From Pseudolabrys sp. (GTDB taxonomy: Bacteria > Pseudomonadota > Alphaproteobacteria > Rhizobiales > Xanthobacteraceae), in NCBI GenBank assembly GCA_022841665.1, contig JALHRB010000016.1:1-64000 (forward strand): a stretch of 64,000 bases of DNA, written 5' to 3'. Below, piece after piece: positions 11,745 through 25,367 of this stretch (positions are counted from its first letter, which is position 1; every line of letters starts with the position of its first letter). The position numbers and the translations under genes were made by a program. The notes below the pieces were generated by a model, which was not told the DNA's origin, searched no databases, and saw only the letters and a program-made list of their open reading frames with translations.

Positions 11745-13964
11745 TCAGCTCGCCTTGCCGCCCAACTCCGCCTTCACTCGCTCCGGCGTGAACGGAAGCG
11801 TGCGCAGCCGCACGCCCGCCGCGTCGAACACGGCATTGGCGAGCGCTGCGCCGACGGCCGCGCAGGCGGCTTCGCCGGCGCCGAGCGGCGGCTCGGTCTG
11901 ACGCTCGATCAGGTCGATGTCGATCTTCGGCACGTCCGAGAAACGCATGATCGGATAGCTCGCCCAGTCGAGGCTGGTGACGCGCGAACGGTCGAACTTC
12001 ACTTCTTCCATCAGCACCCGGCTCAAGGTTTGCAGGATGCTGCCCTCGATCTGGGCCCTGACGCCGTCCGGGTTGATCATCTGCCCGCAGTCATGCGCGC
12101 AGGCCACGCGCTCGACCTTGATCCTGCCGGTGGCGCGCTCGACGGCGACCTCCATGCCCATGCCGACATAGGTCTCGCTGTGCTTGTAGTGGATGTAGGC
12201 GATGCCGCGTCCTTTCGCGACCGCCGCAGCCGTATTGCTTCCGGGCGAAGGCCGTGCCTGCCACTTCATCAGCGCGGCGGTGCGCTTGAGCACCTCGACG
12301 GCGCGCGGATCTTTCAACCCGTTCAGGCGGAATGCGACCGGATCGAGGCCGGCCGCGGTCGCTAGCTCGTCGGTGAAGCTCTCCACTGCGAAGCAATTGG
12401 CGGGCTTGCCCGGCGAGCGCAGCGGGGCAGGGCGCAAGGGCGCCGTCTTCAGCCAATGCGCCACCACCTCGATGCGGTCGGCCGCGTAAGGCGGGTCGCC
12501 GTTCTGCGAGATCAGGCCGGTGTTGAGCCCGACGATATTGTCGAGGCCGGCCGCCTCTGGTCCGAGCAGCGGGATATTGAGCAGCCCCCGCGTCGTCTGC
12601 GGAATCCACATGTCGGTGCGCCAGTCGACGATGCGCCCGTCGGCGACCGCGCCGCTGACCTCGATCAGCTGCGGCGGGCCTTTCGGGTCCCAGCCGTGCT
12701 CCTCCGCGCGCGTCCACTGCACGCGCACCGGGCGGCCGACCGCCTGCGACAGGATCGCGGCTTCGGCCGCGGCATCCTCATGGCCATTCATGCCGTAGCA
12801 GCCGGAGCCCTCGACGTAGATGAGGCGCACCTTGTCCTTCGGCAGCTTGAGGAAGCGCGCATAAGTGGTTTGGTTGCCGTGCGTGCCCTGCGAGGCGGTC
12901 CACACCGTCGCGGAATCGGCGCGCACGTCCGCCACCGCGCAGGATGGCCCGAGCGAGGCGTGGCTCTGCATCGGCCAGAAATAGCGCGCGGTGAGGGCCT
13001 TGGCGTTCTCGGACTTCGCCGCCGTGCCTTTGCTGATCAAGGTCTGGGCGGTCAGGCTGGGATCGGCGTGCATCGATTGCGCCAGTGTGGCCTGCTCGGG
13101 CAGGCCCGACCATTCGCTCCACTGCGCCTTGAGCGCGCGCGCGGCGCGCATGGTGGTCCATTCGTCCTCGCCGACGACGGCAAGGAAGTTCTTGATCCGC
13201 ACGACCTTCACGCCGGAGAAATCCTTGACCGAGCTTTCGTCGACCGACTGCAGTTCAGCGCCGATAGCCGGCGGACGAATGACGCGGGCGTGCAGCATTC
13301 CCGGAACGCTGAAGTCCTGGATGTAGGTGGCGGTGCCTGTGCACTTGGCCGGCACGTCCGGCCGCGGCAGTGATTTGCCGACGAGGGTGTAGGCCGCCGG
13401 ATCCTTCAGCGGCGCCTTGGGGTCGAGCTTGACGTCGAACTGCCGCCCGACGACCAGGCTGGCGAAGTCGATGCCGGGACCGCCGGATTTGCGACGGACT
13501 TGGCCGTCGACGGCGACGAGGTCGTCCGCATTGGCCTGCAACCGCTGCGCGGCGAGTTCGACCAGCGCCTTGCGCGCCGTGGCGGCCGCCTGGCGGATCT
13601 GCACGCCGCCGCGCTGAATGCCGTTGGAGCCGGAGGTGCGTCCCTGGTTGGGCGTGAGGGCGGTGTCGCCTTCGATGTAGTTGATCTTGGCGATGTCGAT
13701 GCCGAGTTCCTCGGCGGCGATCTGCGGCATGGCGATGCGCAGGCCCTGACCGAGATCGACCTTGCCGCAGAACAAAGTGACGGTGCCGTCGCCGTTGACG
13801 GCGAGGAAGGCGTCGACCTCCTTGGGATCGAGCATGCGCGTGCCGGCCGCGCCTTGCGCGAAGGCGCCGCGCGGCAGGCCGCTGAGCGCAAAGCCGACGG
13901 TGAGGGCGCCGCCCTTGAGCAGCGCGCGGCGGGAGAAGCCGGATGTCCTGACGATTTTGTTCAT
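11745..13964 (-). CDS. Molybdopterin-binding large subunit, isoquinoline 1-oxidoreductase beta-type, Tat-exported
   Basis: A 739-residue xanthine-dehydrogenase-family large subunit. The N-terminus SGFSRRALLKGGALTVGFAL is a twin-arginine signal, so the enzyme works in the periplasm, as known for IorB-type proteins. The conserved active-site glutamate is in PPLGAGEAACAAVGAALANA, and VACAHDCGQMINPDGVRAQI is a typical Moco-binding segment. The ATG at 13964 follows GAGGGTGAG; an upstream in-frame ATG would put residues before the signal and is less likely. It pairs with the adjacent 2Fe-2S subunit, whose stop overlaps the leader. Together they probably hydroxylate an aldehyde or N-heterocycle and feed electrons to a cytochrome. 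No cytochrome gene is adjacent. Substrate unknown. Confidence 0.85.
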   Translation of the reverse strand: MNKIVRTSGFSRRALLKGGALTVGFALSGLPRGAFAQGAAGTRMLDPKEVDAFLAVNGDGTVTLFCGKVDLGQGLRIAMPQIAAEELGIDIAKINYIEGDTALTPNQGRTSGSNGIQRGGVQIRQAAATARKALVELAAQRLQANADDLVAVDGQVRRKSGGPGIDFASLVVGRQFDVKLDPKAPLKDPAAYTLVGKSLPRPDVPAKCTGTATYIQDFSVPGMLHARVIRPPAIGAELQSVDESSVKDFSGVKVVRIKNFLAVVGEDEWTTMRAARALKAQWSEWSGLPEQATLAQSMHADPSLTAQTLISKGTAAKSENAKALTARYFWPMQSHASLGPSCAVADVRADSATVWTASQGTHGNQTTYARFLKLPKDKVRLIYVEGSGCYGMNGHEDAAAEAAILSQAVGRPVRVQWTRAEEHGWDPKGPPQLIEVSGAVADGRIVDWRTDMWIPQTTRGLLNIPLLGPEAAGLDNIVGLNTGLISQNGDPPYAADRIEVVAHWLKTAPLRPAPLRSPGKPANCFAVESFTDELATAAGLDPVAFRLNGLKDPRAVEVLKRTAALMKWQARPSPGSNTAAAVAKGRGIAYIHYKHSETYVGMGMEVAVERATGRIKVERVACAHDCGQMINPDGVRAQIEGSILQTLSRVLMEEVKFDRSRVTSLDWASYPIMRFSDVPKIDIDLIERQTEPPLGAGEAACAAVGAALANAVFDAAGVRLRTLPFTPERVKAELGGKAS

Positions 13965-13965
13965 C

Positions 13966-14430
13966 TCACCCTCGCTGTCCGGAGGCGGCCATGACCGCGC
14001 GCACGACCCGCACATGCGAGCCGCAGCGGCAGAGGTTCAGGTCGAGGGCGGTGCGAACGTCATCTTCGCTCGGTTTTGCGTTCTTCGAGAGCAGCGCGGC
14101 TGCGCTCATGATCATGCCGCTTGTGCAGTAGCCGCATTGCGGTACCTGCTCCTGGATGAAGGCGGCCTGGATGGGATGCGGCTTGGCCGGCGTGCCGAGC
14201 CCTTCGATGGTGACGATCGCCTTGCCCTGTGCGTCGGCGACCGTCATCTGGCAGGATTGCATCGCCGTGCCGTCGATCAGGACGGTGCAGGCGCCGCACT
14301 GACCGAGCCCGCAGCCGAACTTGGCGCCGGTCAATCCGGCGTCGCGCAGCACATAGAGCAGCGGTTTGTCGGCGTCCGGTGATTCGACGGATCGCTCGCT
14401 TCCATTGATGCGTAGCCTGTAGCTGGGCAT
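13966..14430 (-). CDS. 2Fe-2S subunit of the molybdenum hydroxylase (IorA type)
   Basis: A 154-residue two-cluster ferredoxin-like subunit. The plant-type cluster is CGLGQCGACTVLIDG followed by SCQM, and the helical second cluster is PQCGYCTSGMIM plus NLCRCG. These are the standard ligands of the small subunit of xanthine-dehydrogenase-family enzymes. It carries no signal and is presumably exported with the Tat-signal-bearing large subunit by hitch-hiking. The ATG at 14430 is chosen because GGGAGC lies nine bases upstream and the frame before it has no family similarity. It is directly upstream of the large subunit and overlaps its ribosome binding region. Confidence 0.88.
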   Translation of the reverse strand: MPSYRLRINGSERSVESPDADKPLLYVLRDAGLTGAKFGCGLGQCGACTVLIDGTAMQSCQMTVADAQGKAIVTIEGLGTPAKPHPIQAAFIQEQVPQCGYCTSGMIMSAAALLSKNAKPSEDDVRTALDLNLCRCGSHVRVVRAVMAASGQRG

Positions 14431-14608
14431 GTCGGCGCTCCCTTTGCCGTCCATTTGATTTTGTTGATTGTTGGCGGCTTGAGACCACTTTAGCGGAATT
14501 CCAAACCGCGGTTGAGGCGGATGCGGTCGCATCGCGTAAATTTGAAATAAAGAAATTCACCTGCCGCGCCGTCGTCGGGCTGCGCTGAAATGCCGCTGGT
14601 CTAACGGT

Positions 14609-15133
14609 TCACGCTTTTCTGCTCGTCTGTTCCAGCAACGCGAGCAGACCCTTCAACATGTCGGTCGGCGAGGGCGGGCAGCCGCGGATGTGCAGGTCGA
14701 CGGGCACCACGTCCTTGACGCCGCCTTCGACCGCGTAGCTGCCGGCGAAGATGCCGCCGTCGGCCGCGCAGGCGCCGATGGCCACCACCCATTTCGGATC
14801 GGGCGTGGCGTTATAGGTCCGCAGCAGAGCCTCGCGCATGTTCTTGGTCACCGGCCCGGTGATCATCAACACGTCGGCGTGACGCGGCGAGGCGACGAAG
14901 CGCAGGCCGAAGCGCTCGAGATCGTAGAAGGCGTTGGCGAGCGCGTGGATTTCCAATTCGCAGCCGTTGCAGGAGCCGGCGTCGACCTGGCGGATGGAGA
15001 GCGAGCGGCCGAGCCGCGCGCGGGCGGCGCGCTCGACACTCTCCGCCAGCTCCTTGAGCGCGGCCTCGTCGGGCGCGGGCGCCGGCTCGGTGAGCGGGCC
15101 GTGGGTGAGGCCTTCGAGCAAAGTTTTGCGCAT
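14609..15133 (-). CDS. Hydrogenase-4/complex I small subunit-like 4Fe-4S protein (HyfI/NuoB type)
   Basis: The 174 residues carry the cubane ligands of the proximal/N2 cluster: CNGCE near residue 55, GACA in the middle and RGCPPSP near the end. All four cysteines are kept. This subunit normally sits beside the large subunit and passes electrons to or from the membrane arm. It is the last gene of the Ehr-like operon, 97 bases after the large-subunit gene, and that gap holds a palindromic repeat. The intact cluster next to a large subunit without NiFe ligands suggests electron transfer to another acceptor, perhaps quinone, but that is inference. Confidence 0.88.
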   Translation of the reverse strand: MRKTLLEGLTHGPLTEPAPAPDEAALKELAESVERAARARLGRSLSIRQVDAGSCNGCELEIHALANAFYDLERFGLRFVASPRHADVLMITGPVTKNMREALLRTYNATPDPKWVVAIGACAADGGIFAGSYAVEGGVKDVVPVDLHIRGCPPSPTDMLKGLLALLEQTSRKA

Positions 15134-15150
15134 CAGAGGTCTCTTTCTTT

Positions 15151-15237
15151 GCGCATGATCTTATCCGACCTTCCTTCGCCCGCCGAAGCGGGCTTCGCGA
15201 AGGCGGGAAACCGGTTCCTATTTTTCGGGATCATGCG
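15151..15237. repeat. Dispersed palindromic element with a nested GC-rich hairpin
   Basis: The outer arms GCGCATGATC (15151-15160) and GATCATGCG (15229-15237) are inverted copies. Between them lies an independent hairpin from about 15170 to 15206 with arms CCTTCG/CGAAGG and inner arms CCCGC/GCGGG around CGAA. AACCGGTT follows, then CGGGATCATGC. Arms of this kind around an AACCGGTT core are, from general knowledge, scattered between genes in Rhizobiales. The right arm overlaps the last codons of the large-subunit gene and supplies its stop. Confidence 0.65.
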
Positions 15238-16685
15238 TCATGCCCCGAATACGAGCAGTTGAACGACTTGTTGCAGAGTGGGAAGTCGGCGACGATGTTG
15301 CCCTCGATCGCGGCTTCCAGCAGCGGCCACTGGAACCAGGAGGCGTCGCGCAAGTGACAGCGCGCCACGCGGCCGCTCTCGTCGAGCCGCAGCCAGACCA
15401 GCACGTCGCCGCGGAAGGCTTCGACCAGCGCCAGGCCTTCGCCGGCTTTGGCACGCAGCGGCGCGATGATTTCCCCCGCCGGTAGCCGGTCGAGAATCTG
15501 TTCGATCAACGCCAGGCTTTGCTCCACCTCGCGGATGCGGATCCATACGCGCGCGTTGACGTCGCCGGCATCGAGAACGGGCACGTCGAACTTCAACAGG
15601 TCGTAAGGTGCATAGCGCAGCGCGCGTCGCGCATCGAAGGCGCGGCCGGAGGCGCGGCCGACATAGCCACCAGCGCCGAACTGACGGGCGTAATCCGGTT
15701 TCACGACGCCGGTGGTGACGGTGCGGTCCTGCAAGGAGGCGGTGCTGTCGTAAAGCTCGATCAGAGCAGGAAACACCTTGCGCACCTCAGCGACCAGCGT
15801 ACGCAAAACCGCTGCGCCCTCGGGTGCGATGTCGCGCGCCACGCCGCCCGGCACGATGACGTCCATCATCAGCCTGTGGCCAAAGCATGCGTGCGTTACA
15901 CGCAGCACGCGCTCGCGCAGGATGCCGCATTGCGCGTGCATCAGCGTGAAGGTGGCATCGTTGCAGATGGCGCCGATATCGCCGAAATGGTTGGCGATCC
16001 GCTCCAGCTCCGCCATCAGCGCGCGCAGGAAGACCGCGTGGGCAGGGACTTCGACTTGCAGAGCGATTTCAGCGGCCTGCGCGAAAGCGAAGGCATAGGC
16101 GACCGTGCTGTCGCCGGATGTACGTCCGGCAAGCTTCGCCGCCCGATCGAGGCTCGCGCCTTGCATCAGCCCTTCGATGCCCTTGTGCACATAGCCGAGC
16201 CGCTGCTCCAGCCGCACCACGTGCTCGCCATTGGCGGTGAAGCGGAAATGGCCGGGCTCGATGATGCCGGCATGCACGGGCCCGACCGCGATCTGATGCA
16301 GGCATTCGCCTCCGGCCGGCAGGAATTCGTATGGCGCGGGCGCTTGCGCCGGCGCGCGCTTGCCGAGCGGCTGCGCGACGTCCCAGAAGCCGAGGTCAAG
16401 CCAGGGCCGCGCGTCCGGCGCGCCGTCGGCCCTGAGACCAAACAGACTTGCAATCGCGCGTTCGAGCCGAATGGCTGGCGGATGCCGGGCCCCGACGCTG
16501 GGGTATCGCCCGTCTTCGCAGGTATAGGTCAGCACGCCGATGTCGGCGGTCTTCTCGTCGAGATGCGCCATCGACACGTCGGCGCCGTCCGCCCACAGGC
16601 CGAGCAGAGTCAGTTCGCCGGTCGCGAGACGTTCCGTAGCCTGGCGCCAGCCTTCTTCTGTGACGTGCGTGCGGGGCGGGATCAT
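15231..16685 (-). CDS. Ehr-type large subunit (HyfG/NuoCD-like) lacking all NiFe cysteine ligands
   Basis: The 484 residues have a NuoC-like N-terminal part and a NuoD/hydrogenase-3-like large-subunit body (GPVHAGIIEPGHFRF, LEQRLGYVHKGIEGL). In real group 4 hydrogenases the first metal motif is RxCGxC; here it is RTSGDS. The C-terminal DPCxxC motif aligns with NCSYSG. All four ligand positions are therefore Ser, Ser, Ser and Gly, although two cysteines remain nearby in CNKSFNC. The protein cannot hold a NiFe centre in the known way, and no hyp maturation genes are near. This is the hallmark of energy-converting-hydrogenase-related (Ehr) complexes. Its reaction partner is unknown. The start is ATG, five bases after the upstream gene's stop. 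Confidence 0.85.
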   Translation of the reverse strand: MIPPRTHVTEEGWRQATERLATGELTLLGLWADGADVSMAHLDEKTADIGVLTYTCEDGRYPSVGARHPPAIRLERAIASLFGLRADGAPDARPWLDLGFWDVAQPLGKRAPAQAPAPYEFLPAGGECLHQIAVGPVHAGIIEPGHFRFTANGEHVVRLEQRLGYVHKGIEGLMQGASLDRAAKLAGRTSGDSTVAYAFAFAQAAEIALQVEVPAHAVFLRALMAELERIANHFGDIGAICNDATFTLMHAQCGILRERVLRVTHACFGHRLMMDVIVPGGVARDIAPEGAAVLRTLVAEVRKVFPALIELYDSTASLQDRTVTTGVVKPDYARQFGAGGYVGRASGRAFDARRALRYAPYDLLKFDVPVLDAGDVNARVWIRIREVEQSLALIEQILDRLPAGEIIAPLRAKAGEGLALVEAFRGDVLVWLRLDESGRVARCHLRDASWFQWPLLEAAIEGNIVADFPLCNKSFNCSYSGHDA

Positions 16686-16690
16686 GCGGC

Positions 16691-18133
16691 CTATCCCAGC
16701 AGCTTGGCGACGTTTTCAAAGCCGGCGACCAGCCCCGGCGGCAGATAAATGCCGGCGCAGGCGACGATGCCGAAATGCGCGAACATCGGCACGTAGGAGG
16801 CGTGCACCGGCCCGCTCGGACCGCGCGGCTCGCCAAAGGCGATGCCGTTGAGGCGCAGGAACAGGCCACCGAGGGCAACCAGGATGCCGAAGACGAGAAT
16901 AGTGGCGAGCACCGGCTCGCGTGCAAAGGTCGAGCTTATCACCAGGAACTCGCTCATGAAGATGCCGAGCGGCGGCAGCCCGGCGATCGCCACGACCCCG
17001 AAGACCAGGCTCCAGCCGAGCACCGGATGCGTGACGGTCAGTCCGCCGAGATCGGCGATCTTCTGCGTGCCCTTGACCTGCGCGATGTGGCCGACCGTAA
17101 AGAAGATCGCCGACTTAGTCAGCGAGTGCATCGTCATGTGCAGGAGGCCGGCGAAGTTGGCGAGCGGTCCACCCATGCCGAAAGCGAACACGATGATGCC
17201 CATGTGCTCGATGGAGGAGTAGGCGAACATGCGTTTGATGTCGCGCCGCCGGTACAGCATGAAGGCCGCGAACAGGCAGGAGATCAGCCCCATCGTCACC
17301 ATCAGCGGGCCGGGCGCGATGGAGGCCGGGTTGAGCGCGAGCAGCATCTTGAAGCGCAAGAGCGCGTAGAGCGCGACGTTTAGGAGCAGACCGGAGAGTA
17401 CTGCCGAGATGGGCGTCGGGCCTTCGGCATGCGCGTCCGGCAGCCAGGCGTGCAGCGGCGCCAGGCCCACTTTGGTGCCGTAACCGAGCAGCAGGAACAC
17501 GAAGGCGACGTTGAGCAGCGCCGGATCGAACTTGGCGGCGTGCTGGACCAGCACGGTCCACACCATCGCCTCCAGCCCTTCGCCGATCACCGGCCGCGCC
17601 GCCATGTAGACCAAAATGGTGCCGAACAGCGCCAGCGCGATGCCGACGCTGCCGAGGATGAAATATTTCCACGCCGCTTCTAGCGCCTCGTGCGTGCGGT
17701 AGATGCCGACCATCAGTACGGTGGTGAGCGTGGCGACTTCGATCGCCACCCACATGAGGCCGATATTATTGGCCACCAGCGCGAGATTCATGGCGAACAT
17801 CAGCACCTGGTACATGGCGTGATAGAAACGTACCGAGCGCGGCGTCAGCCGGCCGATTTCTATCTCGTGGCCGATATAGCTCGCGCTGAACACGGACGTG
17901 GTGAAGGCGACAAAGGTGGTCAGCACGATGAAGACCTTGTTGAGGTCGTCCACCAGCAAGTAGTCGCCCGAGCGCGGCTCGAACAGGAACAGCGAGACCG
18001 AGGTGAGGAAGGTCGCCAGCGAGGCCACCACGTTGAGATTGGCGGTCAGCCGATAGCCGGGCAGCACGGCGAGCGCCGCCGCCGCCACGAGCGGGATCAG
18101 CAGGACGGCGTCGAGAGCGTTGAAGGCCGTCAT
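16691..18133 (-). CDS. hyfF: Hydrogenase-4 subunit F-like, antiporter-type membrane subunit
   Basis: A 480-residue polytopic protein of the NuoN/NuoL/MrpD antiporter-like family, with about 13 to 14 hydrophobic segments. The proton-channel glutamate is in MWVAIEVATLT and the channel lysine in GYGTKVGLAPLHAWLPDAH. In the next helix, SGLLLNVALYALLR has Asn where HyfB keeps Lys. It forms part of the proton-pumping membrane arm of the Ehr-like complex. Its start overlaps the hyfE stop by four bases, so the two are translationally coupled. Length is slightly shorter than E. coli HyfF. Confidence 0.88.
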   Translation of the reverse strand: MTAFNALDAVLLIPLVAAAALAVLPGYRLTANLNVVASLATFLTSVSLFLFEPRSGDYLLVDDLNKVFIVLTTFVAFTTSVFSASYIGHEIEIGRLTPRSVRFYHAMYQVLMFAMNLALVANNIGLMWVAIEVATLTTVLMVGIYRTHEALEAAWKYFILGSVGIALALFGTILVYMAARPVIGEGLEAMVWTVLVQHAAKFDPALLNVAFVFLLLGYGTKVGLAPLHAWLPDAHAEGPTPISAVLSGLLLNVALYALLRFKMLLALNPASIAPGPLMVTMGLISCLFAAFMLYRRRDIKRMFAYSSIEHMGIIVFAFGMGGPLANFAGLLHMTMHSLTKSAIFFTVGHIAQVKGTQKIADLGGLTVTHPVLGWSLVFGVVAIAGLPPLGIFMSEFLVISSTFAREPVLATILVFGILVALGGLFLRLNGIAFGEPRGPSGPVHASYVPMFAHFGIVACAGIYLPPGLVAGFENVAKLLG

Positions 18134-18792
18134 TGCCGTTCGCCCCGGAAGCGGTCGAGCGCCTGGATGTCGACCGTGTCGAAGCGCTCGCGGATGCGGA
18201 ACAGGAAGATGCCGATCACGATGAAGGCGATCAGCACGGAGAAAGCCACGGAGATTTCGACCACCAGCGGCATGCCTTTGGCGCCTGTTGCCGCCAGCAC
18301 CAGGCCGTTCTCCAGCGACATGAAGCCGATCACCTGGCTGACCGCGTTGCGCCGCGTCACCATCATCAGGAGCCCGAGCAGAACCACCGACAGGGCGAAG
18401 GCGAGATCCTCGCGTGCCAGCGGGTCGGCTTCGGCCGTCACGCGCAGCATCACCACCATCGACAGCGCGACCAGCCCGATGCCGGCGAGCATCGCCAGCC
18501 CGACGCCGACCACATTGTCGAGTTCGCGGTGGATTCCGAGCTTGACCACGATCCGGCGCAGCGCGACCGGAATGACGACGGCCTTGAAGACGAATGCGAT
18601 CGTGGCCGTGATGTAGAGGTGCGGCGCGTGCTGCACGAAGGCCTGCCAGGCTACAGAAGCGGTCAGCACCAGCGCGTGCAAGGCGAATATATTGATCAAT
18701 GACGACAATCGGTCCTGGTAGAGTTGCATAAAGCTCACCAGCACGAGCGAGCCGGCCAGCATGTGAGCGATGTCGAAGGTCAGCTTGTTCAT
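18130..18792 (-). CDS. hyfE: Hydrogenase-4 subunit E-like membrane protein
   Basis: The 220 residues form several hydrophobic helices and match HyfE in length and position. They include the segment VIGFMSLENGLVLAATGA, which resembles the NuoK-like part (GxExxL with a membrane glutamate) of HyfE. It is a structural subunit of the membrane arm and probably contributes to the proton path. Its ATG at 18792 overlaps the hyfC stop by one base, and its stop overlaps hyfF. Identification rests mainly on the membrane profile, the LENGL motif and the fixed order hyfB-C-E-F. Confidence 0.85.
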   Translation of the reverse strand: MNKLTFDIAHMLAGSLVLVSFMQLYQDRLSSLINIFALHALVLTASVAWQAFVQHAPHLYITATIAFVFKAVVIPVALRRIVVKLGIHRELDNVVGVGLAMLAGIGLVALSMVVMLRVTAEADPLAREDLAFALSVVLLGLLMMVTRRNAVSQVIGFMSLENGLVLAATGAKGMPLVVEISVAFSVLIAFIVIGIFLFRIRERFDTVDIQALDRFRGERQ

Positions 18793-19748
18793 CAGAAGCT
18801 CCCCGACACGAAGCGCAACAGCGTCGCCAAGAGCGCCAGCATGAGCGCGGCGCCGAGGAATTCGGGCACGCGGAACACGCGCATCTTGGCGATGGAGGTT
18901 TCGAACACCGCCAGCAGGAAGCCGCCGGCTGCGAGCTTGGCCGCGTAGGCGCCGACGCCGACTGCGACGAATGCCGGTGTGGCGGTGGCTGCCGCGATGC
19001 CCCAGGGCGCGAACAAGCAGGCGATCAGCGACATGTAAAGTAAGAGCTTAAGCATGACCGACAATTCGATCAGCGCCAGATGGCGGCCGGAATATTCCAG
19101 CACCATGGCCTCATGAACCATGGTCAGTTCCAGGTGCGTCGCCGGATTGTCGACCGGCACACGTGCGTTCTCGGCGATCGCCACGATGATGAGCGCGATC
19201 AGCGCAAGGCCAAGCGACACGCGCAGGCCCACTTCGGGCGAGTTCATGAAGGCCGCCATGGTGGAGAGTTGCGTAGAGCCCGCGATCAGCGCCAGCGTGA
19301 ACACGATCATCAGCATGGCTGGCTCGGCGAGCGAAGCGATCATCACCTCGCGGCTGGTGCCAATGCCGCCGAAGCTGGTGCCGGCGTCGATCCCGGCGAG
19401 CGCTAAGAAGAAGCGCGCGCTGCCGATGAGCGCGATGATGGCGATCAGGTCGGCGGTCCAGGAAAACAGCAGCCCGCTGCGGAAGGTCGGGACCAGCGAG
19501 GCCGCCACCCAGGTCGCCGCGAACACCAGGTAGGGAATGACGCGGAACAGCCAGGAGGCGTTGTCGGCGAGCACGACGTCCTTGCGCATCAGGCGGATGA
19601 GGTCGCGATAGGGCTGCAGCAAAGGCGGGCCCTGCCGGCGCAGCAGGCGCGCCTTCACCTTGCGCACGAAGCCGGTGAGCAGCGGCGAGAGCAGCAGCAC
19701 CAGCAGCATCTGCGCGCCCTGAAAGGCGAGATCGTGGATCAGGGCCAT
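18792..19748 (-). CDS. hyfC: Hydrogenase-4 subunit C-like (NuoH-type) membrane anchor
   Basis: A 318-residue NuoH/HyfC-type protein with about eight hydrophobic helices. QGPPLLQPYRDLIRLMRKD near residue 40 and the charged loop AENARVPVDNPATHLELTMV, followed by HEAM, are the conserved family signatures. In complex I relatives this subunit joins the peripheral arm to the proton channels and lines the quinone site. Its start overlaps the end of hyfB by ten bases. No second antiporter subunit (hyfD) is present, so the complex is smaller than E. coli hydrogenase-4. Confidence 0.9.
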   Translation of the reverse strand: MALIHDLAFQGAQMLLVLLLSPLLTGFVRKVKARLLRRQGPPLLQPYRDLIRLMRKDVVLADNASWLFRVIPYLVFAATWVAASLVPTFRSGLLFSWTADLIAIIALIGSARFFLALAGIDAGTSFGGIGTSREVMIASLAEPAMLMIVFTLALIAGSTQLSTMAAFMNSPEVGLRVSLGLALIALIIVAIAENARVPVDNPATHLELTMVHEAMVLEYSGRHLALIELSVMLKLLLYMSLIACLFAPWGIAAATATPAFVAVGVGAYAAKLAAGGFLLAVFETSIAKMRVFRVPEFLGAALMLALLATLLRFVSGSF

Positions 19749-21748
19749 ATCGCGAGCACCAAAAGGAGCAGCACCAGCGCCATGAACACCAGCGTCAGGT
19801 AGCGCCGGATGGTGAGGAATTGCAGCACGTTCAGGCGTTCGGAGGCGTAAGTGATGAAATCGGCGACCGGCGCGTAGAGCGTGTCCCAGACGGGATCGCG
19901 CATTTTTACTGTGAGACGTGCCGGCGCGGTCGAGCCGGGCGGGGGCATTTCACCGCTCTCGTGCGCGCTGAACACGAGCGTGCCGAACACACGGCGGATC
20001 GGCTGCGCCAGGCTGTCGGCGGTGTATTGCGTGAGCGGACCCGGATCGGGATAGCCGCAGCCCCAGGCGATGCTGCGGCGGATGCGGTCGGAGGCCAAGC
20101 GATGAATGGCGAAGGCCGCGATCATGCCGGAAGCGGTCATGAACACGAACACCAGCAGGCCATTGTAGGAACTGCGGCTTTCGGCTATCGGCACGATCGA
20201 CAGCCATTCTACTCCCGTCTGCACCGGCATGCGCCCTTGCGTGAGCATCTGTGCTACGGGCGCCAGCGTGTCGATGAACAGGCCGGGCAGGATGCCGGCG
20301 ATCAAGCAAAGCGCGGCGAGCGCATACATGGCGGCGAGCGAATGGGTGTCGGTTTCCTGCGCGCCGCGCGCTTCGTCCGAGCGCGGGCGGCCGAGGAAGC
20401 CGATGCCGAAGGCACGGACGAAGCAGGCGCCGGCGAGCGCAGCCGATAGCGCGAGCAACGCACCGACCGCAGGCACCATCAACTTCAGCCCCCAGGACGG
20501 TAATTGCGGGCTGAGGAGGATGGCCTGGAAGATCAGCCATTCAGAGACGAAGCCGTTGAGCGGCGGCAGCGCCGAGATCGCTGTGCAGCCGATCAAGAAC
20601 ACGAAGGCGGTCTGCGGCATGCGGTGGATGAGGCCGCCGAGCTTCTCCAGGTCGCGCTCGCCGGTCGCCGACAAGACTGCACCGGCGCCGCAGAACAACA
20701 GGTTCTTGAATAGCGCGTGATTGAACACGTGCAGCAGCGCGGCGGTGAGCGCGAGCGCAGCCGCAAAGTGCATCGCATAGGCCTTGAAAGCGAGCGCGAG
20801 CCCGAGCGCGGCGAAGATGATGCCGATGTTCTCGATTGTGCTGTAGGCGAGCACGCGCTTAACGTCGCGCTGCATCAGCGCATAGAGCACGCCCATCACC
20901 GCGCTGATGCCGCCGACGGCGAGTACGACCAGGCTCCACCACCAGTCGGGCGGACCGAGCAGGTCGAATGTAATGCGCACGAAGGCGTAGACTGCGACCT
21001 TGGTCATCACGCCGCTCATCAGCGCGGAGATATGGCTGGGCGCTGCCGGATGCGCCAGCGGTAGCCAGGCATGCAGCGGCACCAAGCCGGCTTTGGAGCC
21101 GGCGCCGATCAACACCAAGATCAGCACCAGCGCGGCGAGGCCGGTGGAGGGGTGAGCGGCGCGGATCGCGTCGAAGGCGTAGTTGCCTTGCGCGCCCGCC
21201 AGCAGGCCGAAGGCGAGCAGCAGCGCCAGCGTGCCGAATCCCGCCATCAAGAGATAGACATAGCCGGCGCGCAGATTCTCGCGGACGCGATGATGGGCGA
21301 TCACCAGCGCCCATGACGACAGCGACATGAACTCCCACGACACCAGGAAAGAGAAGGCGTCGTCGGCGAGCAGCACCAGATTCATGGCGCCGAGATAGAC
21401 CGGGTAGAACGGCAGCACGCGGCCGGGAAATTCCTCGTGGCGCCCGTAGCCGAGCGCGAACAGGCTTGCCGCTGCGCCGCCGAGGTTGATCACGGCGAGG
21501 AAGAAGGCCGACAGCGCGTCGATGCGGAAATGCGCCCCTAACCAGGGCAGGCCGAGCGGCAAGGTGACGGCGGAGCCGGCGCCGTCGTAGCCGGTGAGCG
21601 CGAGCAGAGCGGCGGTGCCCACGATCAGCGTGATCATCAGGCTGGCGCTGTAGACCAGCGCGGTGGCGCGCGCCGACGCGTTCAGCGCGATGGCGACGGG
21701 GGCGAGAGCCACCAGCGCCAGCACGCCGAAGAGCGCGTAGACGACCAT
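19739..21748 (-). CDS. hyfB: Hydrogenase-4 subunit B-like proton-translocating membrane subunit
   Basis: This 669-residue antiporter-like subunit has the channel glutamate in FLVSWEFMSLSSWAL, the lysine in GAGSKAGLVPLHAWLPLAH and a second lysine in MSGVMTKVAVYAFVR. A C-terminal extension ends in a final helix. It matches HyfB in length and is the first structural gene of the Ehr-like operon. The ATG at 21748 is chosen because GGAGG sits five bases upstream; a GTG immediately before it is less well spaced. It should couple the redox chemistry of the peripheral arm to proton movement. It follows the XRE regulator gene by 25 bases. Confidence 0.9.
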   Translation of the reverse strand: MVVYALFGVLALVALAPVAIALNASARATALVYSASLMITLIVGTAALLALTGYDGAGSAVTLPLGLPWLGAHFRIDALSAFFLAVINLGGAAASLFALGYGRHEEFPGRVLPFYPVYLGAMNLVLLADDAFSFLVSWEFMSLSSWALVIAHHRVRENLRAGYVYLLMAGFGTLALLLAFGLLAGAQGNYAFDAIRAAHPSTGLAALVLILVLIGAGSKAGLVPLHAWLPLAHPAAPSHISALMSGVMTKVAVYAFVRITFDLLGPPDWWWSLVVLAVGGISAVMGVLYALMQRDVKRVLAYSTIENIGIIFAALGLALAFKAYAMHFAAALALTAALLHVFNHALFKNLLFCGAGAVLSATGERDLEKLGGLIHRMPQTAFVFLIGCTAISALPPLNGFVSEWLIFQAILLSPQLPSWGLKLMVPAVGALLALSAALAGACFVRAFGIGFLGRPRSDEARGAQETDTHSLAAMYALAALCLIAGILPGLFIDTLAPVAQMLTQGRMPVQTGVEWLSIVPIAESRSSYNGLLVFVFMTASGMIAAFAIHRLASDRIRRSIAWGCGYPDPGPLTQYTADSLAQPIRRVFGTLVFSAHESGEMPPPGSTAPARLTVKMRDPVWDTLYAPVADFITYASERLNVLQFLTIRRYLTLVFMALVLLLLVLAIWP

Positions 21749-21773
21749 CACCGCCTCCGCTGGCTGCTTGCGT

Positions 21774-22016
21774 TCATTTGAGCCGCACTCCGCGGCCGCC
21801 GCTGGACGAGATCGCCCCTTCGCCGATCAGCTCGATGCCGCCGGCGGCCAGAGCATTCACCAGCTTCATCAGCGAGTCGACGTTGCCGCGCACGACGCCG
21901 TCACTGGCTTCCATGCGCTGAATGGTCGGAAGCGACAGGCCGGACCGTTGCGCCAATTCGCGCTGGTCGAGGCCGAGCAAAGCCCGCGCCGCCTTCATTT
22001 GCCCTGCGGTGATCAT
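21774..22016 (-). CDS. Small XRE-family helix-turn-helix regulator
   Basis: An 80-residue single-domain Cro/C1-type protein. The helix-turn-helix reads QRELAQRSGLSLPTIQRMEA within the first half, and no effector domain follows. It precedes hyfB by 25 bases on the same strand, so the two are probably one transcript and the protein may control the Ehr-like operon and itself. Upstream is an AT-rich stretch with TTGACA and an inverted repeat. Regulators of this size are common solo DNA-binding proteins; an antitoxin role is possible but there is no toxin gene beside it. Confidence 0.82.
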   Translation of the reverse strand: MITAGQMKAARALLGLDQRELAQRSGLSLPTIQRMEASDGVVRGNVDSLMKLVNALAAGGIELIGEGAISSSGGRGVRLK

Positions 22017-22040: not shown

Positions 22041-22080
22041 ATCAATAGTGATGTATTAAATTAGCATTATGATATGTCAA
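22041..22080 (-). promoter_or_regulatory. Candidate promoter and XRE operator upstream of the Ehr operon
   Basis: On the minus strand TTGACA (22080-22075) is a perfect -35 box in the most AT-rich stretch of this region, with only weak -10 candidates 16 to 17 bases on. ATCA-ATAG-TGAT at 22041-22052 is an inverted repeat between the promoter and the XRE start at 22016, a plausible autoregulatory operator. Both are consensus-based guesses. Confidence 0.4.
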
Positions 22081-22186
22081 GCATCAAAATACGCATAGTT
22101 GGGGATAGCGTCGGCATGCGCCGGACGCGGGAATTTCCTTGGCCTTACAGGCAATTAGCGACGGCGGGCCGGCGCCTAGACCGGCG

Positions 22187-22813
22187 TCAGGTTGCCTTGA
22201 CCGTCCGCGGCTTGATGCCGCTCCAGCGCCGCACCACGCCGACATTGACGCCGAATAGATCGAGCACACGCCCGAGCGTGTGGTCGACCATCTCCTCCAG
22301 CGACTTCGGCTGGGTGTAAAATGCCGGCACCGGCGGATAGACGATGGCGCCGGCCTCGGTCACCGCCGCCATGCTGCGGATATGACCTAGGTGCAGCGGC
22401 GTCTCGCGCAGCATCAGCACCACGCGCCGGCGCTCCTTGAGCGCCACGTCGGCCGAGCGCGAGATCAGGTTCGCGGTCACGCCGGTAGCGATCTCCGCCA
22501 TGGTCTTGATCGAGCAGGGTGCGATCACCATGCCGAGATTCTGAAACGAGCCGCTCGAGCAGGCGGCGCCGACGTCCGCGTTCGGATGCACGACGTCGGC
22601 AAGCGCCTCGACGTCCGCCGTCTTCAGGCTGGTCTCGGCGGCGATCGTCATCTGCGCCGCGCGCGAGACGATCAGGTGGGTCTCGATGTCGGTGTCCTGC
22701 AGTAGTTCGAGCAGGCGGATTCCGTAAACGGCGCCGGACGCGCCGCTGATGCCGACGATCAGCCGCTTGGCGGCGTCGCCGCTGGGTTTCTTGCGTCTGC
22801 TCTTTTGCAGCAA
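22187..22813 (-). CDS. ubiX: UbiX-family flavin prenyltransferase
   Basis: A 208-residue protein with the FMN-binding GISGASGAVYGIRLLELL at the N-terminus, APCSIKTMAEIATGVTANLI in the middle and LMLRETPLHLGHIRSMA near the C-terminus, all classic UbiX/Pad1 motifs. UbiX attaches dimethylallyl phosphate to FMN to make the cofactor prenyl-FMN for UbiD-type decarboxylases. The chosen start is the TTG at 22813, because GGAG lies seven bases before it; a longer frame from 22870 lacks this. It follows tcuB by 63 bases on the same strand. No UbiD gene is in the window, so its client enzyme is elsewhere or unknown. Confidence 0.85.
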   Translation of the reverse strand: MLQKSRRKKPSGDAAKRLIVGISGASGAVYGIRLLELLQDTDIETHLIVSRAAQMTIAAETSLKTADVEALADVVHPNADVGAACSSGSFQNLGMVIAPCSIKTMAEIATGVTANLISRSADVALKERRRVVLMLRETPLHLGHIRSMAAVTEAGAIVYPPVPAFYTQPKSLEEMVDHTLGRVLDLFGVNVGVVRRWSGIKPRTVKAT

Positions 22814-22876
22814 GTCGCGCCTCCAGCGTCTGGTACGGTTAGGAGTAGTCCGCCCTCCGAATGGGGTCAAGCGCCG

Positions 22877-23983
22877 CTATTCGATGCTCGTCTTGCCGCT
22901 GCGGATTTCCTGCGCATAGCGCACCAGCGCCACGAAGCGGTAGATGCCGTGCACGAACTTGCCGTAGGGCATGGTCACGAACAGCGCAAACACCACGCCG
23001 AGGTGTAGCGCCAGCATCGGGTTGAGCGCGGGCGTCGCGCGAAGAACCAGGAGCAGGATGCCGGTGACACTGGTGAGGAACAGCATCACGAGGAATGCCA
23101 CGTCCATGCCGCGGTTCGACCTCGCCATCAGGTCCGGATCGCGGCGGAACTTGGCGGCGAGCAGGCCAACCGGCCCGACGATCAGCCCGATGCCGCCGAG
23201 GGTGCCGAGCACGACCGGCAGATCCCACCAAGGGTAGGGCGCCTGGCGCCCAAACAGATAGTGATAAATGGTCGCCACACAGGTGGCCGCAAAGCAGAGC
23301 ATAAAGCCGTAGAAGGTCGCGTGGTGATAGTGCTTGCGCCGGTCGTTGCCTTTTTCGTCCTCGTTCACGCAGCCCGCGCTGCCGCCGTCGAGATAGCGCA
23401 GGCGCGAGGCGTCCTTGATCGCCTGCCAGATCGAGCCACTGCCCAGGTCGTCCTCCGTGCCGCCGATGTCGCGCCAGAATTTGCGCACGCCCATGATGAG
23501 CGCGACCATGGCATAGAGGAACGCGAGGCCGAACAGCAGCGCCATCGTATTGTGCGGCATCACGCGATAAAACGCGCCGGGGCCGGTCTCGACGCTGAGG
23601 AAAGCCGCGCCGGCCGCCGCGCGGAAGCCGAGGATGAAACCAGCGACGCTGAGCGCGAGCACGATTGAAATGACAAGCCCGTTGCGCGCGAAAGCGCCGG
23701 AAAGTATCCCCGGCCATGCATAAGCGGCATAGGAGTCGGCGCGCACCTGCTCGAGCACCTGCGGGACGTTGACGTTGAACTCGTGCGGCGGCGAGAACTG
23801 GCAGTCGTAATAGCAGGCGCCGCAGGAGTGACAGAGATTGGCGAGGTAATTGAGGTCGCCGTCGCCGAACGAGCGGCGCATCTCCATCGCCGGGAACACC
23901 GCGCACACCCCTTCGCAATAGCGGCAGGAGTTGCACAGCGTCATCAAGCGGTCGGCTTCGGCGAGCGCCTCAGTTGCGTGCAT
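22877..23983 (-). CDS. tcuB: Tricarballylate utilization protein B (iron-sulfur, membrane cytochrome-like)
   Basis: The 368 residues begin with two 4Fe-4S ligand sets, CNSCRYCEGVCAVFP and CHSCGACYYDC. Five or six hydrophobic helices with scattered histidines follow. This is the TcuB/CitB layout. In Salmonella TcuB reoxidises the FADH2 of TcuA and passes electrons to the quinone pool. The ATG at 23983 (MHATEALAEADRL) is preferred over an upstream frame extension; it overlaps the 3' end of tcuA by 14 bases, which indicates coupling. Here the substrate may be tricarballylate or a related tricarboxylate. Confidence 0.85.
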   Translation of the reverse strand: MHATEALAEADRLMTLCNSCRYCEGVCAVFPAMEMRRSFGDGDLNYLANLCHSCGACYYDCQFSPPHEFNVNVPQVLEQVRADSYAAYAWPGILSGAFARNGLVISIVLALSVAGFILGFRAAAGAAFLSVETGPGAFYRVMPHNTMALLFGLAFLYAMVALIMGVRKFWRDIGGTEDDLGSGSIWQAIKDASRLRYLDGGSAGCVNEDEKGNDRRKHYHHATFYGFMLCFAATCVATIYHYLFGRQAPYPWWDLPVVLGTLGGIGLIVGPVGLLAAKFRRDPDLMARSNRGMDVAFLVMLFLTSVTGILLLVLRATPALNPMLALHLGVVFALFVTMPYGKFVHGIYRFVALVRYAQEIRSGKTSIE

Positions 23984-25367
23984 TGATCGCCGCCTCCCGC
24001 CCCGCGATGCGCCCAAACACGCTGCCGATGGTCATGCCGACGCCGGCGGCGTAGCCGCGACCGAGCACGTTGCCAGCCATGATCTCGCCGGCCGCGAACA
24101 TGTTCGCCGCCGGCTTGCCGTCGGCCATCAACATGCGCGCGTGCTTGTCCACGCGCGTGCCGAGGTAGGTGAAGGTGATGCCGGGGCGCACCGGGTAGAC
24201 ATAGTATGGCGGGGTATCGATGCGCCGCGCCCAGTTCGACTTCTGCGGCGTCAGGCCTTCAGTGCGGCAATTGTCGAGCTGCGTGTGGTCGAAATGGCCC
24301 GGCTGCACCGCTGCGTTGAATGTCGCGACGGTCTGCTCCAGCGCCGACGGGTCGAGGCCGACCTTGCCGGCGAGCTCGCGGACGCTCGGCGCCTCGATCG
24401 CCGGAAAGCAGGATGGCATGAACAGCTTCAGCGATTTGGCGTCGAACACGATATAGGCGATCTGGTTGGGCTGGCCGGCGACCAGGCGGCCCCAGATCGC
24501 GTAGCGCTTGGGCCAGACGTCCTCGCCTTCGTCATAGAAGCGCTGCGCCTGCTCGTTGACCACGATGCCCAGCACCACACAGTCGAGGCGCGTAATGATG
24601 CCGCCGTCGTACTTCGGCGCGCGCGCGTCGATCGCCACCGCGTGGCATTGCGTCGGGTCGCCGATGCGATCGACCCCCTTGGCCAGCAGCAGTTTTAGCA
24701 CGCCGCCCTGGTTGTAGCGGGTGCCGCGGATGAGAAAGTTCTCCGCCGGCGGGCCCCAGTATTCCTTAAGCCAGCCGATATTGGATTCGAAGCCGCCGCA
24801 AGCCGCGACCAAAGTACCCGCGTGCACCGTGCGATGCTCGGTGCCGAGTCGCACGGTCGCCGACTTGAAGAAGCTATGCTCGATGTCGAGATCGACTACT
24901 TCGGCGTCATAGGCGACATCGACGCCGAGACCCTCGGCGGTCAGATAGAGCGCGTTCAGCATCGCGCGGCCGCCGCCGAGGAAGAACGAATTGGTGCGGC
25001 CGAGGCTGAGCGTGCCGCCGAGCGAAGGCTGAAAGCGTACGCCCTGTTCGCGGATCCAGACCAGCATTTCCTTGGACTCGTGGATCATATGGCGCGCCAA
25101 CTCTTCGTTGGTCTCGCCTTCGGTGACGCGCAGCAGGTCGTTCCAGAACTCCTCTTCCGGGTAAGGTCCGGTCAGCGTGTCGGTGGCGCTGTCGTGGGCG
25201 CAGCGCATATTGCGGGTGTGGCGTGTATTGCCGCCGCGATAGAATTTCGGCGCCGCCTCCAGCACCAGCACCGAGGCGCCCGCGCGGCGCGCGCTAATGG
25301 CGGCGCAGAGGGCGGCGTTGCCGCCGCCGGCAATCAGGACATCGTATTTGCGCGAGAAATCGGTCAT
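23970..25367 (-). CDS. tcuA: FAD-dependent tricarballylate dehydrogenase
   Basis: A 465-residue FAD protein of the fumarate-reductase/succinate-dehydrogenase flavoprotein fold. The N-terminal dinucleotide site is VLIAGGGNAALCAAISARRA, GGNTRHTRNMRCAH is the TcuA-type substrate loop, and the C-terminal AAGEIMAGNVLGRGYAAGVG closes the FAD site. TcuA oxidises tricarballylate to cis-aconitate in the cytoplasm. Directly downstream is tcuB. No tcuC transporter or tcuR regulator is adjacent. A perfect palindrome at 25434-25448 lies upstream and may be the operator. Other tricarboxylates cannot be excluded as substrate. Confidence 0.85.
   Translation of the reverse strand: MTDFSRKYDVLIAGGGNAALCAAISARRAGASVLVLEAAPKFYRGGNTRHTRNMRCAHDSATDTLTGPYPEEEFWNDLLRVTEGETNEELARHMIHESKEMLVWIREQGVRFQPSLGGTLSLGRTNSFFLGGGRAMLNALYLTAEGLGVDVAYDAEVVDLDIEHSFFKSATVRLGTEHRTVHAGTLVAACGGFESNIGWLKEYWGPPAENFLIRGTRYNQGGVLKLLLAKGVDRIGDPTQCHAVAIDARAPKYDGGIITRLDCVVLGIVVNEQAQRFYDEGEDVWPKRYAIWGRLVAGQPNQIAYIVFDAKSLKLFMPSCFPAIEAPSVRELAGKVGLDPSALEQTVATFNAAVQPGHFDHTQLDNCRTEGLTPQKSNWARRIDTPPYYVYPVRPGITFTYLGTRVDKHARMLMADGKPAANMFAAGEIMAGNVLGRGYAAGVGMTIGSVFGRIAGREAAINARN

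Follow-up and report, generated by a model that had tools for sequence, protein, structure and literature searches.

An operon in Pseudolabrys sp. (assembly GCA_022841665.1, contig JALHRB010000016.1, positions 1-64,000 of the forward strand; this whole stretch of 64,000 nucleotides is called the window below) encodes a complex of the energy-converting-hydrogenase-related (Ehr) class, a known, published class to which it was assigned by its motifs and gene content. The [NiFe] ligands of group 4 hydrogenases are gone from its large subunit, an almost invariant polar set is found in relatives at, or aligned near, the former active site, and substitution rates indicate that the redox arm is maintained in relatives together with the membrane arm. 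The complex is tentatively read as a machine of the complex I/formate hydrogenlyase type that has lost its [NiFe] site and would use the redox arm for another reaction, driven by a ferredoxin-type carrier and coupled to proton pumping; this reading is favoured, with confidence a little short of even. Added here to what is known of the Ehr class are the low substitution ratios in relatives, the polar signature, the absence of a conserved donor gene near the operon, and a helix-turn-helix (HTH) gene with an operator candidate.

Gene content and class assignment

Six adjacent genes on the minus strand occupy window positions 14609-21751: hyfB, hyfC, hyfE and hyfF come first, followed by the genes for the large and then the small subunit. 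They encode a NuoL/HycC-like antiporter subunit (hyfB, 19739-21751), a NuoH/HycD-like anchor subunit (hyfC, 18792-19748), a membrane subunit with a NuoK-like C-terminal part (hyfE, 18130-18792), an antiporter-like membrane subunit (hyfF, 16691-18133), a HycE/HyfG/NuoCD-like large subunit of 484 residues (15231-16685) and a NuoB/HyfI-like small subunit of 174 residues (14609-15133). A sequence-only reading of the window had described a full hyfB/C/E/F membrane arm with NuoB-like and NuoCD-like subunits, and all six open reading frames (ORFs) were found in place with Pfam or NCBIfam matches. The extent that it gave, 14609-21748, is right at its start and short at its upper end: hyfB begins with a GTG at 21751, and 21748 is the next codon, an ATG. 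The large subunit matches Complex1_49kDa, with Complex1_30kDa slightly below its cut-off; the small subunit matches Oxidored_q6, HyfC matches NADHdh, and HyfB and HyfF match Proton_antipo_M and exceed the curated cut-offs of the NCBIfam 'hydrogenase 4 subunit B/F' models. All family-model matches of HyfE lie below cut-off.

A large subunit homologous to those of group 4 [NiFe] hydrogenases and NuoD, the absence of the NiFe-binding CxxC motifs, and antiporter-like, NuoH-like and NuoB-like subunits in one cluster place the complex with the Ehr of Geobacter sulfurreducens (GSU0739-45) and comammox Nitrospira. These were compared by description; they too have a membrane arm and a large and a small subunit akin to those of group 4 hydrogenases and complex I, are without NiFe CxxC motifs and have no established function (PMC7894505, PMC10284858, PMC6349859, PMC13194489). 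In print the function is called unknown, or charge translocation is proposed with formate dehydrogenase as a possible partner; further background was taken from PMC10432482, PMC4378227, PMC8004769, PMC6901956 and PMC5484546.

By sequence and fold, the nearest solved relative is Escherichia coli formate hydrogenlyase, and E. coli hydrogenases 3 and 4 (HycE, HyfG) have counterparts of HyfB, C, E and F. Unlike them, the window complex is without the NiFe ligands (RxCGxC and DPCxxC), a C-terminal tail, and HyfA, HyfH and HyfD in the operon. The sequence-only reading had reported no hyp or formate dehydrogenase genes nearby; indeed, E. coli FdhF and HypB, HypC, HypD and HypE gave no match in the window at E 1e-5 (HypA and HypF were not searched). 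In the genome, which measures 3.85 Mb in 125 contigs and is 95% complete, no HypD was found, this being the only maturation factor searched genome-wide, nor a further match to the NiFe large-subunit family besides the operon's own. Complex I, for its part, would call for the quinone-binding His/Tyr pair and for NuoI and NuoEFG in the cluster: the pair is absent, the operon holds neither a ferredoxin-type NuoI/HycF subunit nor a dehydrogenase module, and E. coli NuoI, NuoE, NuoF and NuoG gave no match in the window at E 1e-5, while the same queries do detect L173 (L numbers denote fetched loci). NuoD-like and NuoL/M/N-like genes of complex I are located on another contig of the genome.

Large subunit

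Among PDB sequences (phmmer) the large subunit matched E. coli HycE best (7z0s, 196 bits), followed by the Pyrococcus hydrogenase subunit MbhL (131 bits) and then by complex I subunits. Its predicted fold resembles HycE and NuoCD, with HycE at Foldseek rank 1; the model is useful for the fold only. In the alignment to HycE, RVCGICG stands opposite RTSGDST and DPCYSC opposite NCSYSG, and the cysteine of NCSYSG is aligned to a HycE proline and so does not occupy a ligand position. The four ligand positions were read in 135 window-type relatives (the window itself not included; L218, L222 and L223 set aside beforehand) and are Ser in 132, Ser in 125, Ser in 129 and Gly in 135. A ligand cysteine is absent from 133 of these proteins, and the other two (L106, L217) have a single one. 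After the last motif Asp, HycE and HyfG continue for 33 residues and the window protein for one; we take the extension to be the processed maturation tail.

The claim that RTSGDS and NCSYSG replace RxCGxC and DPCxxC with the loss of all four ligands is borne out by these counts, and the alignment with group 4 hydrogenases and NuoD, which the sequence-only reading had set beforehand as a check, yielded no four-cysteine NiFe site. That the complex might be a real [NiFe] hydrogenase with unusual ligands is hardly credible; HycE is indeed its nearest solved relative, but cysteine at the NiFe positions is so rare, no HypD was found in the genome and there is no processing tail.

H38 and Y87 of Thermus thermophilus Nqo4, the proposed quinone head-group ligands (PMC7684303), align with I142 and G191 of the window protein, which are Ile in 134 and Gly in 133 of the 135 relatives. 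These positions bear on a reading of the complex as a ferredoxin:quinone oxidoreductase like plant and cyanobacterial NDH, in which new residues instead of the His/Tyr pair would hold the quinone head group. The chamber-forming subunits (HyfC, large and small) are the same, a separate contig of the genome carries complex I genes, and the invariant or almost invariant H270, D192 and S190 could serve as ligands; yet both known ligands are gone, their replacements are polar and the loop retains the hydrogenase-type E143. A quinone acceptor is judged unlikely on balance, though it deserves to be taken seriously.

E143 aligns with MbhL E21 and is Glu in 134 of the 135 relatives; E21 has been called key to proton reduction and is missing from MBS (PMC7684303). 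The same residue enters the comparison with the sulfane-sulfur reductase MBS of Pyrococcus furiosus, which is known here by description, MbsL not having been aligned. MBS has likewise lost the NiFe site and both quinone ligands, and a reductase of its kind would use the proximal cluster as catalyst. MBS, however, has a shortened small-subunit loop with a three-Cys cluster, two large-subunit cysteines, no equivalent of E21 and a hydrophobic chamber (PMC7684303), whereas the window complex has a four-Cys cluster with HycG-like CxxC spacing, no ligand cysteine, polar replacements, E143 and no MbsN-type (NuoI-like) subunit in the operon. Chemistry of the MBS kind is accordingly regarded as very improbable.

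Residues that are fixed in at least 95% of relatives and yet differ from the NiFe rows include S190, D192, N232, D236, N242, H270, D275, D447, N472, K473, N476, S478 and G481. By alignment, S190, D192, S193, N476 and S478, and also H270, D275 and N242, form an almost invariant polar set at, or aligned near, the former active site, and from the known location of the two motifs several of the fixed polar residues would line one cavity.

Small subunit, membrane arm and selection

The small subunit has four cysteines for one [4Fe-4S] cluster (SCNGC, GACA, GCPP) in a CxxC...C...CPP pattern with HycG spacing. The pattern recurs in 127 of 129 small subunits, the misses being one cut-off piece and one probably wrongly picked ORF. 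In the membrane arm, channel residues were read per subunit, in the first 57-60 relatives that passed a length filter. HyfB E140, K220, K298, K349 and E404, which stand opposite NuoL E144, K229, K305, K342 and K399, are invariant (60/60), as are HyfF E132, K221, K300 and E395 (60/60; opposite NuoM E144, K234, K312 and E407), HyfC E142, D200, E207 and E218 (57/57) and HyfE E161 and E179 (60/60). Both the retention of the 4Fe-4S ligands and the intact channel Glu and Lys residues of HyfB had been noticed from the sequence, and equivalents of the latter are thus present in HyfF, HyfC and HyfE as well. Proton pumping is probable from these conserved residues, in agreement with the earlier description of a probable pump whose donor and acceptor were left unnamed.

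The ratio of nonsynonymous to synonymous substitution rates (dN/dS) was determined for 12 independent pairs of relatives with large subunits 82-96% identical (10-12 pairs per gene, mechanical ORF starts, the window's own copy in no pair). Median values were 0.146 for hyfB, 0.095 for hyfC, 0.059 for hyfE, 0.098 for hyfF, 0.16 for the large and 0.144 for the small subunit, and the highest single value was 0.386; in relatives, the redox arm is by this measure maintained together with the membrane arm.

One paper regards the Geobacter Ehr as nonfunctional and drifting (PMC13194489). Extended to the window, this picture of a decayed hydrogenase could draw on the missing NiFe ligands and on a patchy occurrence in the genus (14 of 23 other genomes, some of them incomplete). 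It is nevertheless scarcely tenable in view of median dN/dS values of 0.06-0.16 in relatives, the fixation of the replacement residues, the six genes that stay together and the conserved operator candidate. The same data bear on a pure ion or proton transporter, serving Mrp-like pH homeostasis with a redox arm that is only structural. The antiporter-like subunits are strongly conserved, and a fluoride riboswitch controls a related NiFe-less cluster that lies next to fluoride exporters, a setting for which a link to pH homeostasis has been published; on the other hand, the cluster cysteines are retained in 127 of 129 small subunits and the redox-subunit dN/dS medians are low (0.16 and 0.144). 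Only a small chance is given to a redox-inactive transporter.

Regulator gene and operator candidate

A gene for an 80-residue HTH_3 (XRE-type) protein lies at 21774-22016 on the minus strand, co-oriented with the operon, ends 22 bases before hyfB and is probably co-transcribed with it. Neither this gene nor its operator candidate appears in the sequence-only reading. Of the 117 loci with room for it, 72 have a relative close to hyfB and in the same orientation; 24 of the 72 overlap hyfB by four bases (mechanical starts) and one lies at an odd distance. The carriers are mostly labelled alphaproteobacterial, with three or more betaproteobacterial (L133, L155, L156) and one from Terriglobia (L127). 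No relative was found in the 20 loci L205-L224, six of which have a longer HTH protein, cupin-like by eye, beside hyfB instead.

Upstream of the HTH gene, the palindrome TGATGTTTNAAACATCA at 22070-22086 (minus-strand feature TGATGCTTGACATATCA) is an operator candidate; it is the sole TGATN9ATCA of the window and includes TTGACA, although a promoter scan reported no promoter. A palindrome score of 11 or more out of 16 is reached in 67 of 73 HTH loci (4.4 expected from shuffles) and in four of 45 loci without the HTH gene (2.85 expected). Because the consensus came from the same HTH-locus sequences, whole genomes were also searched. Among 80 Bradyrhizobium genomes, 25 contained 26 motif places with at most one mismatch; 25 of these places were fetched, of which 21 were at the HTH-hyfB operon and four elsewhere (18 of 22 at the operon without the three that are identical to the named Bradyrhizobium loci L095, L096 and L098, from which the genus is known and which are members of the consensus set). 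A reversed control pattern matched once in the 80 genomes. In the genus of the window ten of 19 motif loci were the operon and no control match occurred in 25 genomes; the other nine loci had mixed neighbours, and a wider regulon in the genus was not adopted. The HTH protein probably controls the operon through its own candidate operator; an autorepressor is likely, since in several relatives from the genus the candidate site and the start codon of the HTH gene overlap. Many window-type relatives co-encode the regulator and the operator candidate, in which they differ from the Geobacter and Nitrospira Ehr as described. Neither the operator nor the residue signature was met in the papers cited here, no search having been aimed at them.

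Three operator-like sites outside the operon in the genus lie upstream of haem or cytochrome genes: at L257 3241 (an EB_dh protein by Pfam), at L259 1349 (a look-alike by eye) and at L258 6835 (a cytochrome b561/dihaem protein by Pfam). Such genes are a possible second target of the regulator.

Other kinds of control were looked for in 118 upstream regions and given up: FNR/FixK boxes occurred in two (0.3 expected), sigma-54 and Fur-like sites in none, and NarL-like sites in 18 (36 expected). The first two counts also bear on a reversed direction of the complex, in which proton-motive force would lift electrons from a higher-potential donor to ferredoxin and so supply low-potential reductant. 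The channel arm is intact, related complexes are reversible, and many hosts belong to Bradyrhizobium, Rhizobium and Azospirillum, genera with nitrogen fixers. However, the gene clusters common to at least six loci include, by eye, none that is nif, fix or ferredoxin-using, and FNR/FixK boxes and sigma-54 sites have the counts just given. Reverse flow is considered improbable.

Distribution, neighbourhood and phylogeny

Within the genus, 14 of the 23 other genomes have the large subunit, one of them as a fragment; among 384 other genomes sampled from the class the number is 31, counting rows of at least 53% identity. In a phylum sample of 398 genomes, counted by E value with motifs read in fetched loci only, 76 matched at E 1e-60 or better, and 62, the genome's own included, at E 1e-136 or better. 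The rest comprised one fragment, ten matches at 1e-74 to 1e-82 and three at 1e-68 to 1e-71; the one examined of the ten, L218, is a true hydrogenase with NiFe cysteines and FdhF, while the two examined of the three, L222 and L223, are of a diverged NiFe-less type. A contig scan confirmed at least 585 relatives, of which the best 80 were fetched, and 61 plasmid or chromid records matched at E 1e-60, mainly from Rhizobium (31), Azospirillum (8) and Cupriavidus (6), with two from Rhodococcus. The full set of six genes was found in 99 of 121 loci, and 86 of these have precisely the order of the window; in the remaining loci a gene is missing from the stretch that was fetched, which for some stops at a contig end, and small differences in order may reflect overlapping over-long ORFs. 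Database records name the parts hydrogenase, formate hydrogenlyase, complex I and even HypE.

In the 139 loci apart from L218, an FdhF-like gene was found in two (L100, L133), HypC in one, HypD and HypE both in the same two, a HycB-like gene in one and a weak HycF-like match in two. HypB, HycI, HyfH, NuoI, NuoE, NuoF and NuoG gave no match there, with queries that recover their own E. coli loci; L218 itself has FdhF, HycI, HycB, HycF and HyfH matches. The window's own neighbours were tried as donor and rejected, IorB being found in one (weak), IorA in none, UbiX in two and TcuB in none of the 140 loci. No conserved donor gene was thus seen near the operon in these loci. A formate dehydrogenase encoded elsewhere could be the partner, in a formate dehydrogenase-Ehr chain without H2. 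Such a chain has been put forward for Margulisbacteria and Saganbacteria (PMC6349859), and in Geobacter the Ehr subunits were more abundant with formate than in hydrogen-containing conditions (PMC7894505); a higher abundance of Ehr has been reported from a coculture as well (PMC8691401). Against this, FdhF-like genes lie near only two of the 139 loci, HycB- and HycF-type linkers near one and two, and none of them is in the window, so that the chain is thought quite improbable.

In a tree of 45 rows (midpoint root; used solely for the separation from the NiFe and NuoD rows, the NiFe rows not being a single group) starred branches separate the NiFe and NuoD rows jointly from the window type. A tree had been suggested in the sequence-only reading; its outcome, the motif alignment, the genome searches above, the conserved channel residues and the lack of a conserved donor gene nearby all agree with that reading's Ehr-type complex in place of a [NiFe] hydrogenase. 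The Rhodococcus and fluoride-type sequences described below branch in between, and the diverged L222/L223 pair falls inside the window type on a long branch, so that the label 'window type' needs two changes instead of one on the tree. This pair (L222 8953-10488, L223 9129-10661) consists of NiFe-less large and small subunits with the motif RINA[VL]DS, from two genomes of 2.5 and 2.0 Mb in the same class; HyfB, C, E and F had no match within their fetched flanks at E 1e-3.

Proposed mechanism

For the donor, the acceptor and the direction we infer the following. A soluble low-potential carrier, most likely ferredoxin, would dock at the position expected for HycF/NuoI and reduce the single [4Fe-4S] cluster. 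A small acceptor, located in the polar cavity of the former NiFe site, would then receive electrons together with protons, and the resulting movement would be relayed via HyfC and HyfE to the channels of HyfF and HyfB, which would move protons out. Expression of the operon would be governed by the co-encoded HTH protein, probably an autorepressor that acts at its own operator. A general carrier is the probable donor, since no donor gene was found to accompany the operon.

Several points weigh against this mechanism. Ferredoxin is a guess from the missing NuoI/HycF-type subunit. The polar cavity rests on alignment, because the AlphaFold model has a pLDDT confidence score below 50 at residues 115-163 and 460-484, which are exactly the active-site segments. 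The dN/dS values are those of relatives. The neighbour search covered short flanks (median 4.6 kb), which an unlinked dedicated donor would escape, and an FdhF-like gene does lie near the operon in L100 and L133. The proposal of formate dehydrogenase as Ehr partner (PMC6349859) and the rise of the Geobacter subunits with formate (PMC7894505) point the same way.

Surrounding genes and related clusters

Directly upstream of the operon, window positions 22187-25367 encode a UbiX-type prenyltransferase, TcuB (which passes one NCBIfam cut-off) and an FAD-binding protein that resembles TcuA. Directly downstream and on the same strand, at 11745-14532, lies a two-subunit molybdenum hydroxylase, which is isoquinoline 1-oxidoreductase-like and is not conserved as a neighbour in relatives.

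A set that is the same by gene name, hyfBCEFGI, occurs in Cupriavidus metallidurans (Rmet_4666-4671) and C. eutrophus H16 (H16_A2196-A2201) and was judged very unlikely to serve lithotrophic growth (PMC2864759). One copy from C. metallidurans, L226, falls with the window type in the tree and ends in NKSFNLSYAGHD; it is 48.7% identical to the window protein over 87% of the large subunit. An actinobacterial operon with the same NiFe-less motifs and nuoB first is found on a plasmid of Rhodococcus sp. WAY2 (L225, 2987-10275) and bears on actinobacterial genes annotated as formate hydrogenlyase. Its gene order presumably resembles that of Mycobacterium tuberculosis Rv0082-Rv0087. The M. tuberculosis genes, likened by annotation only, are listed in print as two oxidoreductases, HycD, HycP, HycQ and HycE, a set like that of the window.

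A second NiFe-less hyf-like cluster (RVSGVD, SFGLTI[AS]GCAR) occurs on plasmid NZ_CP073671.1 of Burkholderia cenocepacia (L230, 5182-12908) and on a plasmid of Caballeronia sp. SBC1 (L234, 5161-12825). Both begin just downstream of a fluoride riboswitch (Rfam match in L230, model match in L234); L230 has seven fluoride riboswitches within 19 kb, and the genes next to them are annotated CrcB, chloride channel family and pyrophosphatase. The small-subunit gene of this type also holds a HycF/NuoI-like N-terminal stretch. 'Formate hydrogen lyase' is named among fluoride-riboswitch genes (PMC11139923) and, at least in L230 and L234, may be Ehr-like instead of a hydrogenase. Fluoride control of the window type was tried and not supported: a model from the seven L230 riboswitches gave 66-73 bits in L230 and 56-62 in L234, but elsewhere at best 20 bits (L226, E 0.009), followed by L064 (E 0.03) and L215 (E 0.09), in a search that left out the short locus L078.

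Implications

Window-type complexes are common, including in well-studied genera, and no function has been established for them. It is possible, if on the doubtful side, that they form an additional functional branch in the complex I superfamily, next to those with H2, quinone and sulfur chemistry. Such an oxidoreductase would have one cluster, couple its reaction to protons and act on a small acceptor at a fixed polar S-G-D-S/N-x-S-x-x-G site, and it would be carried as a self-contained, autoregulated module that moves from one bacterium to another with no donor dedicated to it. Thanks to the signature residues, the compact operon and the predicted operator, the function can be tested in tractable hosts, and a new acceptor, if found, would widen the range of reactions in the family to which respiratory complex I belongs.

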